Source: a virus
Strand: one strand, 5' to 3'
Length of the DNA: 21,463 nucleotides
Virus record (IMG/VR): IMGVR_UViG_3300030103_000301
Span: 1 to 21,463 of that record
Shown: positions 1,354 to 21,462 of the stretch, piece after piece
Numbering within the stretch: position 1 is the stretch's first letter
Layout of the letters: every line of letters starts with the position of its first letter
Position numbers and translations under genes: made by a program
The notes under the pieces: generated by a model
The model's database searches: none
What the model was told of the DNA's origin: nothing
What the model saw: only the letters and a program-made list of their open reading frames with translations

Positions 1354-2202
1354 ATGTTGACATTAGACAGTGCAATGGGTATGTTCATCGGACTCGCAGT
1401 GGGTGATGCGCTTGGCGCACCCCTAGAGTTCATGCCCAGCAGAGAACCGGATGACTATATCACTAAGTATATGAAGGGCGGTCATCACGATATGAAGAAA
1501 GGTGAGTGGACTGACGATACAGCTATGGCATTAGGCATGGCACAGTCTTTCATCGACAATGATGGTGAGTTCAAGCCAGAAGATATCATGGGTAACTGGG
1601 CAGTGTGGCGTAGCCACGGTGAGTTCATCCCACGAGGTCACTGTTTTGATATTGGTAATACAACTGAACGTGCTATCATAAAATACATTAAAGACAAGAC
1701 AGTGTACAACGGAGTATCACTTGACACTGAATCAGGTAATGGTGCGCTGATGCGACTTGCACCTGTGGTCATGGTATCCGCAACACCGGAACGTGCAATG
1801 GAGTTAGCTGTAGCACAGACAATCATGACACACGGTAGCCCTACAGCTATCGAGTACAGCCGTGTATTTGCACACGAACTGTGGCATGGTGACGCATTGC
1901 AAAGATATAGAAAATACAGGTTGCCTTTAGACATTGACCGTGAGAAGGTTATGTCAGGTGGTTACGTAGTAGAAACATATCAGTGTGCTATGTGGGCTTT
2001 CATGACTACGAATAACTTTGCTGATTGTATTATCAAGGCGGTCAATCGTGGGTATGACAGTGACACCTGTGGTGCAGTAGCCGGTATGATAGCTGGCGCA
2101 CATTATGGATACAAAGGTATACCAAAACGGTTCACAGAAGAACTTGCATGGCATGATGAATTATGTAGAGCAGCAGTAAAGCTGCATCAGTTAAGGAGAT
2201 AA
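1354..2202 (+). CDS. ADP-ribosylglycohydrolase (DraG/ARH family)
   Basis: The 282-residue product has all the signature blocks of the DraG/ARH fold. These are GLAVGDALGAPLEF (residues 13-26), the metal-binding WTDDTAM (52-58, D54 and D55), NGALMRLAP (129-137), the helix around YVVETYQCAMWAF (204-216), and the second metal-binding block GYDSDTCGAVAG (233-244, D235, D237, T238). Family members use a two-metal (usually Mg) centre to remove ADP-ribose from proteins or other acceptors. The usual GGDTDT reads RGYDSDT here, but both aspartates and the threonine are kept, so the enzyme should be active. Length is normal for the family. It lies between DUF932 and the recombinase. The substrate cannot be read from sequence; reversal of host or defence-derived ADP-ribosylation is an inference. 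Confidence 0.92.
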   Translation: MLTLDSAMGMFIGLAVGDALGAPLEFMPSREPDDYITKYMKGGHHDMKKGEWTDDTAMALGMAQSFIDNDGEFKPEDIMGNWAVWRSHGEFIPRGHCFDIGNTTERAIIKYIKDKTVYNGVSLDTESGNGALMRLAPVVMVSATPERAMELAVAQTIMTHGSPTAIEYSRVFAHELWHGDALQRYRKYRLPLDIDREKVMSGGYVVETYQCAMWAFMTTNNFADCIIKAVNRGYDSDTCGAVAGMIAGAHYGYKGIPKRFTEELAWHDELCRAAVKLHQLRR

Positions 2203-13404: not shown

Positions 13405-16400
13405 TTATGGTTGTGCTAGAGCAAACTCTATCATTGCAAATAGATGTTCTGGGTCTCCTAGATTAGGCTCTTGATTAGCAAGCCCACCATCACGTATCAA
13501 AGCAGGTAAGTTTTGCCATGCATCTGCCCTTTCAGAGGGTGTCAGTCTTCTATATCTTTGTTGTAACCTCATATACACAGTCAGCTTACCATCTATAGGA
13601 GAGCCGTCTGGCGTAACCAATTCACCAGCATCTTGGTCGGCTATATAGTCATCCATTTGACTTTTATAAAATCTAAGTTGACTTTCTACAAAGGCAATAG
13701 CAGCTATGTTAGTAAACTTTTCAACATTATCTTCGCCCACAGAAGCAGCCCGTGCAGCCTGTTCACTTCTCCACTCAGGACTACGTATTACGTTTACAAT
13801 ATTAGGCAGCATTGAACGTAAATAACGTGTTTCATATTGATTAAAACCTTTTGATATGGTTCTGCTAGGAACTTTAAAGTCTCTATAACCTAGTCTTTCC
13901 AAATACTGACCTGATTCACTCAACTCTTCAGTAAGTCCAATACCACTAAATACCTTTAAGGGTATTCCTATACGTTTACGTGGCCTACCTTCCTCTTGGA
14001 ATACAGTTTCTCTAGAAGGTAATTCATCCATTGAGCCGGGGTCAAAGATATTTGAAAATCCACGTCTATTAAGAACCTCTTTAGCTGCCCTTTTAAATGG
14101 TCCTTCGTACTCTTCACCAGTCTCTGGGTCTTTTCCAAGCATGGCTTCTTGACGAACATCTGTAAAGACAGAAGTTCTTTTACCTGCTATGCGTTGCATT
14201 TCTATTACCTGAGTTAAAGGAGTTAGAAATGTAGCACCATATTCTGTAATCGCTTCAGCTAAAAGTTCTTTACCTTTTTCTCCACCCATAGCATCAGCAG
14301 TAGACATCATCTTTGCGAAGTCTTCGAATATAACTGCACCTGTTCCTGTGCGTACATTTGTACCTAAGAATGTTTGTTTGATATCATCAAAGTCTAGCCA
14401 GTTACGAAATGTTCCATCACCTTCTGGCCCACTAAAAGTCATGCCATTTATAGTGACCTCTGTACCTGCTAATGCGCCACGTTTAATTGCCTCTGCTATC
14501 CAAAGTGCCTGTCTTAAAATAGGTGATTGAGGTGTAGTATCTATCAAACCATTTTCTGTTTTTAACATCTTGTAGTCTGATGGCACATCATCATTATATT
14601 CTTCGCTTCTATACATCATAGCTGCTGGTAATATAATCGTAGCACCAATAATATTACGAGATATTTGCTGTCGTTCTTTTTTTGTAAGTTTACCTACTGC
14701 CGTAGTAAAATCTCCTGTGCTTGCAGCAATAGAGCGTTTAATAATAGGGGCAAATGCACCACCAGAATAGTTACCCGCTAATTCCATACTATTAAACATA
14801 AACCTTGGAAAAGGTACAACAGCAGTTAATCCAGTGCGTGTAATAAAAGATGTAATTTCTCTAAACACAGGAACTTCAGGTTGCTTGGCATATGTAATAT
14901 CTAATGCTTTATCTGTAGCGTCAGCTACTAACTCATTAAATGACCGACTACCTTTAGGCACTAGGTCAGAAGCATCATTCATTAAGTCAGGTAATCTACC
15001 TGCATTTAAAGCCTGTACTAGGTCAATGCCATATTCTCTTTGCACAAGACGTTCTAGTTCACCTGTAAATGCACCCCTGCGAATAAGAAACTCTTGCCAT
15101 CTATTAGGTAAGTTAAGAACATCAACACCCATCTCTGCAGCATTTAATATTCCATCTACACCTCTACCTAATTTAGTTTTTGCTGTTCCTGCCCCTGTGC
15201 TTTTGCGTATTTCGTTGATAGTGTTAAACATCATATCAAACTGAGCAGAATACTTATCATTACTCAGCACAAAATCTGTTATTTGTTTTGAGTCTCTCAT
15301 TTTGGTAGGGTCAAACATATAACGCATATGTCTAAAGCTACCTGTCCAGTTGCCTTCACCGGGTTTGAATGTTTTTATACCTGCAACTAAACTATTTGTT
15401 GGACCTTTTGCATTACTAAAGTTATACATTGCAGTATCTAGTATATTTTGCATACCTTCAAGAGGCGCACGTACAACAGCAGATGACAAGTTTCTACCTG
15501 CTGTAGCTAACTGTGATACTAAAAGTCCACGTCTTATGTTCTCTACACGAACCACAAACTTCTGCAAGCCGTTCATGCTATCAAAAAACTTTTTTTCCTC
15601 TGCTGCACGTTTAGCACTAGCAGGTTTTACACGTTGTGATAGCTGAGAAAATTTATTAAGTACCCTACCTGCTTCTGATGCAGAGCCTAACATCATTGTA
15701 GCGTACTCTTCAAAGTTTATGTCATATTTATTTAATAGGTCTAGCAATTCATCTGCTGGTATGATGTCTTTATTTACTGACATTTCAAACAGATTATCTA
15801 CCAATCCTTTTGAAGGGTCATACAACTCTGGTTTTCTATCTAAAACTTCTTTAGCAATAGCAGTAAAAGAATTTAAATTTTCAGCTTTGATAATAGGTAT
15901 GGTAAGTTCCCCATCATCATTAATGAGAAAATCAGGAATGTCATCTTCCGGTGCATCTTTAAGACCAACAACCTCTAGTGCCTTATCCCTTTTTTTAGTA
16001 GAACTATACTCTGCTAACTTTTTACGAGCAGCTTCTTTGGCTGCTGAATTATTTAATTTAATCACACCATCATCTGTAACAGAGATAAGCAAGTCTTTGT
16101 TTATAATTACAGGTTGACCTGCAGAATCATATGTATCTTTACTTCGTGCGCCAATAGCTTGTTCAAAACTCATAATGAGTTGTTCTTTTATACCTTGATT
16201 TGCATCGGCTATCTTTTTTGCTGCGCCACGTTTTATTTTCTTTTGGTCTGCAGTGTTTGCTGTTGCTAACTCTAAATTAAACCGCTTACTATTCGCAAGT
16301 TTCTTAGCTTCTTTACCAGCAGCTATTGCTGCATCTTTGTACTGTCTACCTAATGTTGCTACTGGTCCAAGAACAGGTATAGCTTCCATAGCAGTAAAGA

Positions 16401-17286
16401 AATTTAACATTTCCCTGCCCCATTGCTCTGCGGCAGTAGCAGGGTCTTGTTTTGTACCCCTTGCTATATACTCATTAAAAAAATCATAACTCGCTTGGTT
16501 TGTATCCTGCCATGTTTCAAAGAAAGACTGCACTACATCTATCGAACCTGAACCTGCTGCATTCATAGCATTACCTAAACTAATCATTGCATCAAATGCA
16601 TCGGCTCCACCGAACGCTATAAAGTCTTTGATAGCACCATCATCCATCTTAGGTATGACGATGGTCTCTATAGCTTTGTCTCTTCTAGCATTATTTACAA
16701 TAGTGTCTTCATCTAAATCAATTTCAGGCAGCATAAATTCGGGTATGTCAGGTCTAGTGCTAAGTATAACTTCTCTAATTTCTGCCTGTTCTCTTGCCTC
16801 TGCTATTGCTTGTTGTTCTTCCTCAATAGTAAAGTCAATAGAAAATGCAAGGTCATTTATACTTGCTTCTACTTCATCTGCTTCTGCAGTAACTTGTTCA
16901 TAACGAGACTTTATTTCGTTATCTTGGTCAGAATAACCCGGAGGAAAAACTGCTCCATCTTCAACAGGCACAGGTGGTAACTTTTCAGGACGAGGAACAA
17001 CGCCTATGATATCTCCATTGTCATCATATTCTAGCATCATCTCATCTTTTTGACCACGTTCTTGTGGTGGCTGATAATCAACAGCAGGAGAAAAAGATGT
17101 ATCAATTAACTGATTAAGTTCGTCTGTGCTTTGCTCTTGTATAGGCCGTTGTTCCACAGCAGAAATATCTGGTGTGACTACAGAATCAAGAGGCACATTA
17201 TCCTGAATCTGATTTTCTACATCAAACTGCTGGTCTATTAATGCCTGTAAATCTGCAGTAGACTGAGTTTCATTCTGAAGCATCAT
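13405..17286 (-). CDS. Very large virion protein, possible internal/ejection protein (T7 gp16-sized)
   Basis: 1293 residues. The first 200 are acidic and disorder-prone with a duplicated short motif. Residues 225-330 are more hydrophobic, including FFTAMEAIPVLGPVATLG. The middle (560-900) has helices and conserved-looking blocks such as AGRNLSSAVVRAPLEG, LNLPNRWQEFLIRRGAF, VVPFPRFMFNSMELAG and IIGATIILPAAMMYRS. The rest is charged and helical. I see no lytic transglycosylase motif like that at the start of T7 gp16. Size and last position in a - strand structural run fit the largest internal core protein of T7-like podoviruses, injected with the DNA; this is inference. The start ATGATG overlaps the upstream stop; no strong Shine-Dalgarno is seen, so coupling is likely. 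Confidence 0.7.
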   Translation of the reverse strand: MMLQNETQSTADLQALIDQQFDVENQIQDNVPLDSVVTPDISAVEQRPIQEQSTDELNQLIDTSFSPAVDYQPPQERGQKDEMMLEYDDNGDIIGVVPRPEKLPPVPVEDGAVFPPGYSDQDNEIKSRYEQVTAEADEVEASINDLAFSIDFTIEEEQQAIAEAREQAEIREVILSTRPDIPEFMLPEIDLDEDTIVNNARRDKAIETIVIPKMDDGAIKDFIAFGGADAFDAMISLGNAMNAAGSGSIDVVQSFFETWQDTNQASYDFFNEYIARGTKQDPATAAEQWGREMLNFFTAMEAIPVLGPVATLGRQYKDAAIAAGKEAKKLANSKRFNLELATANTADQKKIKRGAAKKIADANQGIKEQLIMSFEQAIGARSKDTYDSAGQPVIINKDLLISVTDDGVIKLNNSAAKEAARKKLAEYSSTKKRDKALEVVGLKDAPEDDIPDFLINDDGELTIPIIKAENLNSFTAIAKEVLDRKPELYDPSKGLVDNLFEMSVNKDIIPADELLDLLNKYDINFEEYATMMLGSASEAGRVLNKFSQLSQRVKPASAKRAAEEKKFFDSMNGLQKFVVRVENIRRGLLVSQLATAGRNLSSAVVRAPLEGMQNILDTAMYNFSNAKGPTNSLVAGIKTFKPGEGNWTGSFRHMRYMFDPTKMRDSKQITDFVLSNDKYSAQFDMMFNTINEIRKSTGAGTAKTKLGRGVDGILNAAEMGVDVLNLPNRWQEFLIRRGAFTGELERLVQREYGIDLVQALNAGRLPDLMNDASDLVPKGSRSFNELVADATDKALDITYAKQPEVPVFREITSFITRTGLTAVVPFPRFMFNSMELAGNYSGGAFAPIIKRSIAASTGDFTTAVGKLTKKERQQISRNIIGATIILPAAMMYRSEEYNDDVPSDYKMLKTENGLIDTTPQSPILRQALWIAEAIKRGALAGTEVTINGMTFSGPEGDGTFRNWLDFDDIKQTFLGTNVRTGTGAVIFEDFAKMMSTADAMGGEKGKELLAEAITEYGATFLTPLTQVIEMQRIAGKRTSVFTDVRQEAMLGKDPETGEEYEGPFKRAAKEVLNRRGFSNIFDPGSMDELPSRETVFQEEGRPRKRIGIPLKVFSGIGLTEELSESGQYLERLGYRDFKVPSRTISKGFNQYETRYLRSMLPNIVNVIRSPEWRSEQAARAASVGEDNVEKFTNIAAIAFVESQLRFYKSQMDDYIADQDAGELVTPDGSPIDGKLTVYMRLQQRYRRLTPSERADAWQNLPALIRDGGLANQEPNLGDPEHLFAMIEFALAQP
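17092..17262 (-). repeat. Duplicated STxxLxxLIDxxF motif in the 1293-aa virion protein
   Basis: Residues 9-21 (STADLQALIDQQF) and 53-65 (STDELNQLIDTSF) share S, T, L, L, I, D and F at equal spacing within an otherwise disordered, acidic N-terminus. The copies are 44 residues apart. Confidence 0.6.
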
Positions 17287-18584
17287 ATGAGTTTATAACC
17301 TGTCCATATAAGTTTAGCAAAACCTTCTTGACCCTCAGTATTTGTAGTTCGTATTTTTATAACAGCGTTTCTTGAAAACTCACCTTTCCTTGCTCTTGCT
17401 AATACATCATCTGCTGTCATAAGTCCTGTCGGACTTAGGTCTACAAATTTTGTATAAGAAACAGGTGCGCCTCTGGATGTTGCTTGAACTCTATTATACT
17501 GCTCTTCTGCTTTGTTTTTAAAATTAGATATCTGCAGGTTTACCTGTTTAACTTCTTCATCAGCATTAGCGTGAAGCAATTTATATTGTTCACCTTCATA
17601 ACGTGACTTTAGAGATTGATATGCAGCCCGTTCCAAATCAAATGCTTCACCCTCATTACCCGCTATAACTTGACCAATCTTTCCATCTAATCCCTTTACT
17701 GCAAACTTTGATATAGCTGTTTCTCTAGTTGTTTTTAGTATTGTAGTGATGCTAGAAGTTAAGTCTTTATCAAGAGGCCCAAGTGGTTCGTCTCCTGCAC
17801 CTCTAGCATTTCTTTCATCTAATTGGAACTTCAACCACTCATCATGCGCACGATTACGTTTTGCTATTAAACTAGCTATTATTTCTGGGTTTGCAGCATT
17901 TCCCTTTGCCCGTTCATCTTCTAGCTGTTGAGTATAACCAACGTGCATGGCTATATAAGTGCTTGGCTTTTTTTCATTACCTCGCATACTTTTTGCAAAC
18001 TCTTGTCCTGTTTTTAAACCTGCTCTATCAACAGTAGCTGTGCCGATATCAAACTTTCTAACAGGTGCTGATTCTGAAACGCCTACGTCTTTATTAATTT
18101 GAGTTGTTAAATCAACATTCTTTAAAAATCCAGTACCCATAATTTCACCAGATTGTAGCTTACGCATAGAGGCTGTATATGGGTTAAGACTACGAACAAG
18201 TTCTTCCATAGTTCCTATGTCTTCTCCTTGTGTATGCGTAACTAAAGTACCAACATCAATACCTGCATCACTACTTTCTGTAAACAATTTATATGCACGT
18301 TCAGCCCCTGCAAGATTACCACCATATTCGTTAATAACACGAATTGCATCTACAGCAGTAGCATTCGGTCCAAGAGTAGACTGAATACCTTCTGCATACT
18401 CAGTCATAGTTCTTTCAAATTCAGCATCTTGTTTTTTCTGAGCATCACGAAGAGACATACGTTCTTTAGCAACTCTTTCTGCACGTTCATCTGTCCTGCG
18501 CATGTCATCTTTAAGACGGTCATCTAGGCTTTCTGCAAGCCCACCTACAAAACCCTCAAAAAAATTACCGCTAAACAATCCCAT
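17283..18584 (-). CDS. Putative virion protein (433 aa) with amphipathic N-terminus and coiled coil
   Basis: The protein opens with MGLFSGNFFEGFVGGLAESL, a Gly/Phe-rich amphipathic segment that could insert in or lie on a membrane. A long charged helix to about residue 70 (RRTDERAERVAKERMSLRDAQK) looks like a coiled coil. Further helices follow (for example 215-260 and 320-365), and the C-terminus turns to strands with RNAVIKIRTTNTEGQEGFAKLIWTGYKL. No enzymatic motif is visible. Between the 167- and 1293-residue genes, with overlaps at both ends, it is probably part of the same particle sub-assembly, possibly a second internal/ejection protein. GGAGAG upstream of 18584 supports the start, and TAATG couples it to the gene before. 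Family not recognised. Confidence 0.7.
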   Translation of the reverse strand: MGLFSGNFFEGFVGGLAESLDDRLKDDMRRTDERAERVAKERMSLRDAQKKQDAEFERTMTEYAEGIQSTLGPNATAVDAIRVINEYGGNLAGAERAYKLFTESSDAGIDVGTLVTHTQGEDIGTMEELVRSLNPYTASMRKLQSGEIMGTGFLKNVDLTTQINKDVGVSESAPVRKFDIGTATVDRAGLKTGQEFAKSMRGNEKKPSTYIAMHVGYTQQLEDERAKGNAANPEIIASLIAKRNRAHDEWLKFQLDERNARGAGDEPLGPLDKDLTSSITTILKTTRETAISKFAVKGLDGKIGQVIAGNEGEAFDLERAAYQSLKSRYEGEQYKLLHANADEEVKQVNLQISNFKNKAEEQYNRVQATSRGAPVSYTKFVDLSPTGLMTADDVLARARKGEFSRNAVIKIRTTNTEGQEGFAKLIWTGYKLI

Positions 18585-19087
18585 TACACTCTCCGTGACA
18601 TCAGGCCAGTTGGTGCTTCTTCTTCTACTGCTGGCTCTTCTGTTTCTTCAGCAGCTTCTTCATTATCTTCCATCTTGCTTTCTAGCTTTAACAATGTTTT
18701 TTGTACTAAGCTATCTCGTGGACGGTCTTTACGTAAGCCTTGTTCTAACCCTGTTTCGTATTCTATCTGTGCGCTATCTGCAATAAGCATTACCATTTCG
18801 ATAAGCACTGGAAGCACAAGCATACCTGTATCAATGGTATGAAGTCCTTCCATAACACCACCTAGCTGAATAATATTAGCTAAGTCAGTTACGGGTACAC
18901 CCATTTCTAGTACATCAAGTAGCTGATTAGAAAAGTCATCTGTTGACATACGCTCAAGATAATGTTCAATAGCATCATCTACGGTTACAAGTTTAGGTGG
19001 GCTTTGCCACGGCCTTGCACCCAACTCATGTGTCAATGACATGCCGGGAATAGGAGCGTCAAATAGTGGTTGTGCTGCTTCAGCCAT
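18584..19087 (-). CDS. Putative virion structural protein with PIPGxSLT motif (167 aa)
   Basis: Residues 12-31 contain PIPGMSLTHELGARPWQSPP. I recall this kind of block (PIPGxSLTxxxGxxPWxxPP) from structural proteins of marine T4-like and T7-like phages, though with no defined function. After a helical section there is a hydrophobic stretch at about 85-103 (IDTGMLVLPVLIEMVMLIA) that could be a membrane or buried helix. A very acidic tail follows (135-157, EDNEEAAEETEEPAVEEE), ending in TGLMSRRV. The start at 19087 overlaps the end of the 73-residue gene by 8 bases and the stop overlaps the ATG of the 433-residue gene. The structural role is inferred from the motif and neighbours. Confidence 0.7.
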   Translation of the reverse strand: MAEAAQPLFDAPIPGMSLTHELGARPWQSPPKLVTVDDAIEHYLERMSTDDFSNQLLDVLEMGVPVTDLANIIQLGGVMEGLHTIDTGMLVLPVLIEMVMLIADSAQIEYETGLEQGLRKDRPRDSLVQKTLLKLESKMEDNEEAAEETEEPAVEEEAPTGLMSRRV

Positions 19088-19301
19088 TCTGTTTCATCGC
19101 CTCTCTGTGCTTACGCAATACCTTCATATGTTGTGCAACACGATATGCAGGTTGACTAGCCATCTCTTTATTCATATTTCCCATAGGTTTTTTTCTAGGA
19201 GCAAGCAACCCACTTTTAGTTTCCTGTGTATCTAGGTCATCATTAAAATTTTCAATGTCCATATTTGCATAAGCAACAGCACCCGGATTAAACTGACGCA
19301 T
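19080..19301 (-). CDS. Small basic protein of the virion module (73 aa)
   Basis: A 73-residue protein starting MRQFNPGAVAYANMDIENF. The first third is acidic (ENFNDDLDTQE), and the rest is basic (APRKKP, KVLRKHREAMKQNG) with a probable C-terminal helix. No family is recognised. GGAG about 9 bases before the ATG at 19301, inside the end of the 724-residue gene, supports the start. It overlaps both neighbours (14 and 8 bases), so it is part of the same transcript and probably a minor virion or assembly protein. Its size and charge asymmetry would also fit a chaperone or scaffold, but there is no direct sign of either. Confidence 0.65.
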   Translation of the reverse strand: MRQFNPGAVAYANMDIENFNDDLDTQETKSGLLAPRKKPMGNMNKEMASQPAYRVAQHMKVLRKHREAMKQNG

Positions 19302-21462
19302 ATTCTTTACTCCGTTTATTTTCGATTACTATATCCATTGCTTTTCTGGTTAGCCACTTGAGTGTAGGTTTGTTACTAATAAACTGAGCATACTGTTTAC
19401 CATATCTACCATAAAATTTTCTAAACCACTTAGGTGCATCATACTGCATCCATGTGCGGAAGATAAACCAACGTGGGTCTCCTTTGCCATATACTTCACG
19501 AGCAACCCAGCAGAACAAATTACCAAAGCCATGCTGAATACCTGCACCAAGAACTGTACCAACTAGATTACCAACAGCTTGACCTGTTGCACTACCTGCT
19601 TGTTCAGATGCAATTGCTGCACGAGTAGAAGCATCAAGTTCTGCAATAGCCATATCCACGATACGGTCTTGTGCATTTTCTGCAGATGTCCAAGCCCACT
19701 CCATAGTGTCACCATAATACTGCCATAGGTTTGAATATGCTTGATTAGATATATCGAGAATTGCATTTGCATTGAGTTCATTAGCACGATTAACCGCAGC
19801 GGTATCAGCAGTAGCTACTTCTCTACGCCATTGAGCATTGTTTTGTGCAATTACAAGTTGGTTCTTTGCATTAAACTGGTCACGTTGATTATTTAATTCT
19901 GCATTAAATCTTTCAAGTGTGTTAACCTGACCTGCATTAAACTGTGACTGAGCATTTGATTGGGTTGCATTAAACTGTGATACTTGATTAGCAAGGTTAG
20001 CAAAGAACTGGTCAACTTGTTGTTGGTTAGCTGCATTAAACTGACGTGCTGCATTTTCTGCAGCTTGGTCAGTGAACATAGATTGCGCACGTTGTTGTGC
20101 TTTAAACAATTCAGTCTGTTGCTGGTTTGACAGATTAGCCATATCAACCTGCATAAATGATTGTGCATTTTGTACAGCAGCTTGTTGTCTATTGTTTAAA
20201 TTAGACAGGTCCATATTTGCTAATGCACTAGCTTCTGCAAGAACCATAGCTTGACTATTAGACAAGTTTTGCAGATTCATTGTATTAGCTATACGTGAGT
20301 TTTCTAAAGCAATTTGCTGTTCAGCAGTAAAGTTCATGTTAGCTGCATCAGCTACACGTGCAGCATTTTGCACTCTTACTTGAAACTCTTGGTCAAACTC
20401 TTGACCTAAAAACTTAGCACGTTGCTCTGCAGCAAGCATTGCTGACTGCTGACGGTTGGACAAGTTTTGCTGTTCAAACTGTGCAGCAATAGCTGCATCT
20501 GCCTGTGCTATTGGTAAGGATGCTTCTATAGCTGCTTGTACAACAGCTTGTCCAGCGATAGATGAAGCACCTAAACCACGAGCAGCTAACTGTGCATTAG
20601 CGGTACGAATAGCACCAGCAGCCCATGCAGGTGGATTAGCACCTTGAAACTGCTGTTCTAATATAGCAAGCTGGCCTTGTACACTAGCTTGTTGTGACGG
20701 ATTTGCTTGTGCAGCAGCAGCTTGTGTTTGAGCAGTTGCTTGTGCAGCTTTTGTTGCATCTACACCTGAACCACTTATAAGTTCACCAGCTTGAATTTGT
20801 CTTTGTTGAGGATTATTTATTAAGACAGCATTGCCCTGTGCAGCCTGTAGGTTTCCCACAGATGTTGCTGTCTGTTGTGCTGCAGTTACTTGCGCACGAG
20901 GGTCTTGAGGTGTAGCCTGTGCTGCTTGTGTAGCATTCATTGCTGCATCTATACCGGGTGCAGATTGTGCTGCTTGAAACTGTGCAGCTTGAGTTTGTTG
21001 CGTAGGTGAAGCAAATGATGTACCTGCAATAGCAGTAGGAACAGCTACACTACCAGTAACAGTGCCAGTACCTGCTGCTACTTCTTGACCTGCTGCAAGA
21101 GGTATTCCTTGTGCAATTACCTCACCACCTACAGGCACAGCAGGTTTGTACATGCGTTCTACTGTTCTTTCACCAATAGTCTGTGGTACTGCTGTAGTTT
21201 GTGCGCCACCTGTACCACTACCTGTACCACTACCTGTACCACTACCTGTACCACTACCTGTGCTAGTAGTAAATGCTTGAAGTAATGGTTGAGGCTGGCT
21301 ATTAGCATTTAAATTACTACCCATACCACCTGTCTGCATCTTAACCACACCACCTTTAGCCATCATACGTGCAGCATTGGTATATCTATCCATCTGTGCT
21401 TTACGTTGTGGGTCTTCCTCAATAAACTGCTGGAACTGTGACATATCACCCTGATATCCCAT
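19288..21462 (-). CDS. Large repetitive virion protein with hendecad repeats (724 aa visible, possibly 5' truncated)
   Basis: The frame is open to the window edge. An ATG at 21462 could be the start, but only one upstream base is visible, so the gene may be longer. Order: a charged N-terminal segment with AKGGVVKMQTGG (35-46), a Gly/Thr/Ser linker (68-86), Ala/Gln/Val-rich low complexity (about 120-330), at least 20 consecutive 11-residue repeats (333-552), a linker, a Gly-rich hydrophobic stretch ATGQAVGNLVGTVLGAG (625-641), and an aromatic C-terminal domain. That domain reads CWVAREVYG...DPRWFIFRTWM...APKWFRKFYGRYG (651-688) and ends in basic residues. I have seen this ending in other phage structural proteins but know no function. 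It is likely a fibrous or internal virion component. Confidence 0.75.
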   Translation of the reverse strand: MGYQGDMSQFQQFIEEDPQRKAQMDRYTNAARMMAKGGVVKMQTGGMGSNLNANSQPQPLLQAFTTSTGSGTGSGTGSGTGSGTGGAQTTAVPQTIGERTVERMYKPAVPVGGEVIAQGIPLAAGQEVAAGTGTVTGSVAVPTAIAGTSFASPTQQTQAAQFQAAQSAPGIDAAMNATQAAQATPQDPRAQVTAAQQTATSVGNLQAAQGNAVLINNPQQRQIQAGELISGSGVDATKAAQATAQTQAAAAQANPSQQASVQGQLAILEQQFQGANPPAWAAGAIRTANAQLAARGLGASSIAGQAVVQAAIEASLPIAQADAAIAAQFEQQNLSNRQQSAMLAAEQRAKFLGQEFDQEFQVRVQNAARVADAANMNFTAEQQIALENSRIANTMNLQNLSNSQAMVLAEASALANMDLSNLNNRQQAAVQNAQSFMQVDMANLSNQQQTELFKAQQRAQSMFTDQAAENAARQFNAANQQQVDQFFANLANQVSQFNATQSNAQSQFNAGQVNTLERFNAELNNQRDQFNAKNQLVIAQNNAQWRREVATADTAAVNRANELNANAILDISNQAYSNLWQYYGDTMEWAWTSAENAQDRIVDMAIAELDASTRAAIASEQAGSATGQAVGNLVGTVLGAGIQHGFGNLFCWVAREVYGKGDPRWFIFRTWMQYDAPKWFRKFYGRYGKQYAQFISNKPTLKWLTRKAMDIVIENKRSKEYASV
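19807..20466 (-). repeat. Twenty in-register 11-residue (hendecad) protein repeats
   Basis: Residues 333-552 divide into 20 blocks of 11 without an insertion or deletion. Blocks begin NL, NA or similar and often end in QF, RF or LF. Examples are NLSNQQQTELF, NAANQQQVDQF, NATQSNAQSQF, NAGQVNTLERF and NAELNNQRDQF. Marker NLSN/NLNN segments recur at residues 333, 399, 421 and 443, spaced 66, 22 and 22, all multiples of 11. The register may continue to residue 574. At DNA level the repeats are diverged, so this is a protein-level repeat. Confidence 0.85.
21209..21268 (-). repeat. 12-bp tandem repeat encoding a Gly-Thr-Gly-Ser linker
   Basis: On the + strand the unit CCTGTACCACTA occurs four times perfectly at 21209-21256, followed by a degenerate fifth copy at 21257-21268. 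It is in frame with the - strand gene and encodes a (GTGS)n run in the N-terminal region. The identity of the copies points to recent expansion by slippage. Confidence 0.9.

Follow-up and report, generated by a model that had tools for sequence, protein, structure and literature searches.

An unbroken, length-quantised eleven-residue repeat in a late protein of HMO-2011-type podoviruses, a candidate DNA-ejection tube

A 724 amino acid (aa) open reading frame from a short-tailed marine phage contains an array of approximately 20 eleven-residue repeats (hendecads) in a single unbroken register. In homologous open reading frames the length of this array changes only in whole multiples of 11 residues. 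The protein may well be a DNA-ejection (pilot) protein whose helices line up next to each other to form a DNA-conducting tube, a reading to which we give about an even chance.

The window, i.e. the whole stretch of DNA analyzed here, is a 21.5-kb fragment from the single virus record IMGVR_UViG_3300030103_000301. Its gene content and gene order agree with those of Puniceispirillum phage HMO-2011. Genes for an integrase, primase, DnaB helicase, DNA polymerase A, endonuclease I, class II ribonucleotide reductase and MazG are present, and a convergent late block comes after the early genes. The window thus comes from a podovirus of the HMO-2011 type, short-tailed and marine. Phages of this type are among the most abundant marine phage groups. 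The phage early region of the window also carries an ADP-ribosylglycohydrolase-like protein (positions 1354–2202, plus strand, E-value = 1.6e-62).

The 724 aa sequence shares 63.6% identity over its whole length with HMO-2011 phage1322_25, which is annotated only as hypothetical and displays the same flanks and the same register. The start of the 724 aa open reading frame is one base from the contig end and the HMO-2011 homologue has 18 extra N-terminal residues, thus the contig end has probably cut off the N-terminus of the window protein. Neither the protein nor its downstream neighbours gave an informative match to Pfam, PHROGs or NCBIfam, and a literature search found no paper on the 11-residue repeat of the HMO-2011-type protein. 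The protein and its parts are as follows.

19288–21462, minus strand: the 724 aa hendecad protein, homologue of HMO-2011 phage1322_25
20680–21462, minus strand: N-terminal region, residues 1–261, low-complexity and Ala/Gln/Thr/Gly-rich
20488–20679, minus strand: conserved N flank, residues 262–325, PAWAAGA...RGLGASS...LPIAQ, a non-repeat anchor
20071–20466, minus strand: array I, residues 333–464, 12 hendecads with a 22-residue super-repeat (NLSNxQQ...)
20050–20088, minus strand: conserved junction, residues 459–471, [LF][FL][ST][DN]QAAxNAA, with the register kept
19807–20070, minus strand: array II, residues 465–552, hendecads of the form NAxxQxxxxQF
19615–19839, minus strand: conserved C flank, residues 542–616, NAxWRR...W..SAEN
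19519–19608, minus strand: short Gly-rich segment, residues 619–648
19291–19515, minus strand: C-terminal helical domain, residues 650–724, CWVAREVYG...

Residues 333–574 correspond exactly to window positions 19741–20466 on the minus strand and display one unbroken 11-residue register. Residue class was tested against position modulo 11 and compared with shuffled sequences. Period 11 gives Z = 10.0 for residues 333–552 and Z = 10.3 for residues 333–574, and 0 of 1000 shuffles score as high. A preliminary description of this DNA had claimed a strict register at these positions that possibly reached residue 574. The register stands far above the shuffled controls, and the extension holds as well, since the first part of the C flank, which aligns gap-free among the seed phages, stays in the 11-residue register to residue 574. 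Besides period 11, only its multiples 22 and 33 score in the array, and with correction for scanning, period 11 still shows Z = 8.4 (0 of 500 shuffles as high). The periodicity scan shows no period 7 in the array, and period 11 is absent from the rest of the protein. Twelve other window proteins give a period-11 Z of at most 3.4. The array is 15% charged, with Ala at 19%, Gln at 17% and Asn at 16%, and these counts agree with its description as low in charge and rich in Asn, Gln and Ala. Column 1 is Asn in 15 of the 22 blocks of the window protein. The block boundaries had been given as NL or NA at the start and QF or RF at the end; NL starts are found in the first section and QF/RF endings in the second.

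Homologous open reading frames, 305 in number, were collected from IMG/VR and from cultured phages. The homologues in CRP, HTVC, CHOED, MQM1 and rhizobial phages are annotated as "hypothetical protein". Genome contigs gave few homologues, located in metagenome-assembled genomes. Array length was taken as the distance from the L of LPIA, before the array, to the W of NAxWRR, at the array end, both being non-repeat anchors. The 305 homologues show 15 values: 141, 152, 163, 174, 185, 218, 229, 284, 317, 339, 427, 449, 559, 669 and 779 residues. All 15 equal 9 modulo 11 over this range of 141–779 residues, or 12–70 repeats. HTVC033P, for instance, has 14 hendecads, CRP-1 has 20 and HTVC103P has 28. 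Thus the comparison of homologues that had been proposed as a check finds every length class a whole multiple of 11 away from the others. The chance of a shared remainder under free lengths is approximately 11 to the power −14, a figure that is illustrative only because the length classes are not fully independent.

The register inside the arrays was followed with a PSSM trained without the length class of the segment under test. The expected register is kept in 2761 of 2761 internal segments, thus no compensated indels are hidden inside the arrays. The two array sections on either side of the junction (LFTDQAAxNAA) each vary on their own, and both obey the multiples-of-11 rule. Close relatives show zero core indels, and in most aligned members the core identity is 65–81% with no hypervariable tip.

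The first section, with its 22-residue repeat, is the one that grows in relatives, often by 110-residue steps. Long relatives gain a 110-residue repeat, the lengths stepping through 229, 339, 449, 559, 669 and 779, and the longest members show a self-identity of 0.50 at lag 110 vs 0.16 at lag 11. The large steps are thus explained by recent duplication of 110-residue units. Adjacent hendecads share only about 20% identity, which makes this account harder to apply to the small steps. Recombination between unequally aligned repeats is a further possible source of multiples of 11, one that needs no selection. The absence of out-of-register indels in the sequences argues for constraint. Three loci (L189, L191 and L221) carry 70 hendecads between the anchors, i.e. 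779 residues or about 115 nm as a helix. A straight helix of this length is too long for a capsid or a periplasm, and no model put forward here explains it.

The array appears to be helical. Proline is absent from all 2991 distinct hendecads and glycine makes up 1.1% of array residues. AlphaFold, run on the full protein and on its core, predicts helix throughout the array at low to moderate confidence (mean pLDDT 60, pTM 0.20–0.26, monomer only). One model shows helices at 302–351, 358–393, 404–459 and 464–621 and a second at 302–352, 358–459 and 464–644, with breaks at about 353–357 and at 460–463, the latter near the junction. The lack of proline, the predicted helices and the multiples-of-11 rule bear out the earlier reading of the repeats as helical hendecads. 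The N-terminal region (residues 1–261) is modelled mostly with low confidence and is highly variable in length among relatives.

The array does not follow the classical hendecad coiled coil with its single face. Amphipathicity on one face, calculated at 98 degrees per residue (11/3 residues per turn), is near zero, with a fraction of 0.003. Hendecad cores have a 3-4-4 spacing (PMC11664599). Columns {2,6,10} and columns {4,8,11} are each spaced in this way, with centres at 131 and 295 degrees. Of the 462 subsets of six columns, the one that they form carries the least charge, and the two sets rank top for hydrophobicity among 33 disjoint seam pairs. Charges are centred near 41 degrees and Gln/Ser/Thr near 198 degrees, on the opposite side. 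The most conserved column is column 1 (Asn), with a mean of 96%. A second-harmonic test of two-sidedness that uses only the 11 columns falls short of significance (p = 0.16), thus the presence of two opposite hendecad seams on the helix is well supported but not proven. A helix of this kind suits the wall of a helical barrel or a sheet, and two opposite seams with no single face are unlike a simple dimer or trimer rod. The preliminary description had offered either a long rod or a tube-lining helical bundle; the bundle fits better and the rod less well because of the two opposite seams and the almost complete lack of single-face amphipathicity.

Foldseek of the full model against the PDB showed zero matches, and a PDB sequence search gave only low-complexity matches with the single protein and none with the family profile. 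VIA-align of the core model returned generic long-helix rows only (highest Z 7.2, poor rmsd), which are not informative; phiX174 H is absent from these rows, which proves nothing. Among viral models, Foldseek retrieved phage proteins that carry S74 and, weakly, a row named "DNA transfer protein".

Among the phage proteins used for comparison, only phiX174 H displays period 11 (scan-corrected Z = 4.5, p below 0.001). The same scan gives period 7 for the tail needle of P22 (Z = 7.9) and the tail fibre of T7 (Z = 7.5), and it finds no period 11 in the ejection proteins of T7, P22 or SU10 (Z at most 2.9). The phiX174 H tube is decameric (PDB 4JPP), and 18 of 23 inward positions are Asn, Gln or Arg (PMC7354561). 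H resembles the window protein in that it is helical and Asn/Gln-rich, carries 11-residue repeats and has an uncharged amide side opposite a charged side; by analogy the likeness may extend to the ejection role, which for the window protein is proposed here. However, H has three hendecads followed by heptads (PMC7354561), whereas the HMO-2011 gene 25 family displays 12–70 unbroken hendecads, and H comes from a ssDNA microvirus whereas the family belongs to dsDNA tailed phages. The family profile matches no PDB chain in a library that should hold H (4JPP). With no sequence relationship between the two, the window protein may work like H but is not an H protein. The low charge and high Asn/Gln content had been thought to suit a confined space, either the capsid interior or the ejection channel. 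The composition has a precedent in the solved phiX174 H tube (PMC7354561); a straight rod confined to the capsid is impossible for the longest relatives at 779 residues and about 115 nm.

The position of the gene also points to ejection. In six phages (HMO-2011, CRP-1, HTVC103P, Slicky01, MQM1 and RHph_N3_19) the late operon closes with a block in which the hendecad gene lies close to the beginning and the gene for the largest protein comes last. The remaining members of the block in the window are the following.

18584–19087, minus strand: 167 aa protein, downstream of the hendecad gene, HMO-2011 gene 24
17283–18584, minus strand: 433 aa protein, third in the block, HMO-2011 gene 23
13405–17286, minus strand: 1293 aa protein, last and largest in the block, HMO-2011 gene 22

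The 167 aa protein is strongly conserved, with homologues in about 280 open reading frames of the fetched loci. It shows the motifs PIPGxSLT...RPWQxPP at its start and GLMxRR at its end but no notable family match. The gene for the 1293 aa protein is convergent with the early genes; the protein carries conserved PFPRFMFNSME and ENIRRGxLVSQxAT motifs and has no family or PDB match. Profiles of two of the downstream proteins gave no notable match against the PDB. The SU10 ejection proteins gp20–24 occupy the same position at the end of the late operon (PMC9509320). The T7 gp14-gp15-gp16, P22 gp7-gp20-gp16 and SU10 gp20-gp24 proteins are likewise helical and are found in a block at the late-operon end with the largest protein last, but those tested lack period 11 and no sequence relationship to them was found. 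HMO-2011 gene 45 (locus L082, 8795–9511) contains an SU10_adaptor domain (PF24175, E-value = 9e-26), which by sequence similarity would link the HMO-2011 tail to kuravirus-type tails.

Homologues of HMO-2011 phage1322_25 share the register but vary in array length (12–70 hendecads) and in the C-terminal module. In the window protein the C-terminal domain (residues 650–724) gives a confident helical model (pLDDT 92–96). The sole family it matches is CFI-box-CTERM (NF041770) at 15.8–19.3 bits (E-value = 0.00075–0.009), below the curated cut-off of 40 bits, thus its apparent kinship with the bacterial CFI-box-CTERM domain is distant and sub-threshold. By motif, the CWVAREVYG domain is found in 29 fetched loci only, always within the hendecad open reading frame. 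In the remaining relatives it is absent or swapped for Peptidase_S74, and many simply terminate after the Gly-rich tail. Peptidase_S74 forms the C-terminus in four cultured relatives, CRP-738, CRP-3, CRP-212 and CRP-235, and is absent from the window protein. The CRP-235 relative (locus L099) displays in addition a LysM domain, which is a peptidoglycan-binding domain, at residues 71–110 of its 844 aa hendecad protein. The DNA ejection protein family phrog_4287 matches two of the S74-bearing relatives, in one case over the helix and C-terminus, and the virion structural protein family phrog_6121 is also matched among these relatives. However, much of the PHROG "ejection" match falls within the S74 domain, and the window protein differs in having no PHROG match and another C-terminal domain.

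In the proposed ejection tube, the central 240 residues would make up one long alpha-helix, either continuous or with a slight kink, and several copies would pack side by side through the two hendecad seams. The charged side would face outward and the uncharged Gln/Ser/Thr/Asn side the lumen, and DNA would slide through the tube across the host envelope. The register, the quantised length, the lack of proline, the helical models, the two seams and the gene position all support this reading, as do the phiX174 H likeness, the SU10-like position, the SU10-type adaptor of HMO-2011, the PHROG matches and the LysM domain of one relative. Against it are the lack of a structural homologue in the PDB by profile or Foldseek, the modest confidence of the AlphaFold monomer, the lack of period 11 in the T7, P22 and SU10 ejection proteins, a Gly-rich segment that is not transmembrane-like, the p = 0.16 for two-sidedness, the S74 domain of some relatives and arrays of about 115 nm that exceed the periplasm. 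We infer the virion location, from gene position and homology, as well as the ejection role, a barrel and not a bundle or fibre, the oligomer number and the side facing the lumen. A literature search found no published virion proteome for the hendecad protein.

More tentatively, the family might represent an unrecognised class of DNA-translocation tube in dsDNA podoviruses, an all-hendecad parallel alpha-helical barrel with two seams and an amide-lined lumen. Its length would be set in steps of 1.6 nm (11 residues) and about 16 nm (110 residues) over 12–70 repeats, and it would have evolved independently of phiX174 H while working like it.

The main rival is possible but unlikely. Here three copies of the array would wind into a long hendecad coiled coil, the shaft of a tail fibre or tail needle, and the C-terminal domain (CFI-like or S74 chaperone) would be the trimerising tip. 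Peptidase_S74 (endosialidase chaperone) is typical of trimeric fibres and ends the four cultured relatives, the HMO-2011 hendecad gene comes after a run of annotated tail-fibre genes, and the arrays of up to 779 residues would, if straight, fit only outside the capsid. However, the needle and fibre of P22 and T7 show a period of 7 that the window array lacks, the hydrophobic pattern lies on two opposite sides and not on one, the core is conserved and lacks a hypervariable tip, many relatives stop just past a Gly-rich tail, and the window protein carries no S74. It is doubtful, and less probable than a fibre, that the array is an internal core or spool protein, or a head-morphogenesis rod, that organises capsid DNA and is not a conduit. 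The gene is placed among late structural genes, and the low charge and an amide surface in contact with DNA would suit packing against DNA too, but lengths of about 115 nm, if straight, exceed a podovirus head (the MQM1 capsid is 70.6 nm; PMC10410586) and the LysM domain of one relative points to the cell wall. Least probable is an array folded back into antiparallel hairpins with no parallel side-by-side assembly, its length reflecting domain duplication, for although the AlphaFold helix breaks and a 110-residue super-repeat that could be the hairpin unit favour it, proline is absent, glycine is scarce, the register is unbroken everywhere and loops would tolerate indels other than multiples of 11.

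To our knowledge, the building of a channel through the envelope has been worked out in detail in only a few short-tailed phages. If the ejection-tube reading is true, the hendecad protein would be a simple channel built of repeats, with its length written in the sequence in 11-residue steps. For a natural helical protein it is unusual to keep so strict a quantisation over as many as 70 repeats, and this allows the length, symmetry and lumen chemistry of the channel to be tested directly.

Several other roles were considered and rejected. MQM1, a relative, has a tail of 9.2 nm (PMC10410586) and an anchor distance of 185 residues, or about 27 nm as a helix, which does not fit a tape-measure role. 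A C-terminal membrane anchor, resembling the gp14 membrane segment, is rejected on hydropathy; the Gly-rich segment (residues 619–648) is not transmembrane-like in most relatives and the mean hydropathy is above 1.6 in only 2% of the C-tails. The CWVAREVYG domain had also been considered as a separate small open reading frame in some relatives, but the motif scan placed it only inside the hendecad open reading frame. Endolysin and transglycosylase matches in one relative are due to its LysM domain. In CRP-603 and CRP-207, the neighbours of the hendecad gene include a cell wall hydrolase and a LysM/GH19-like protein.
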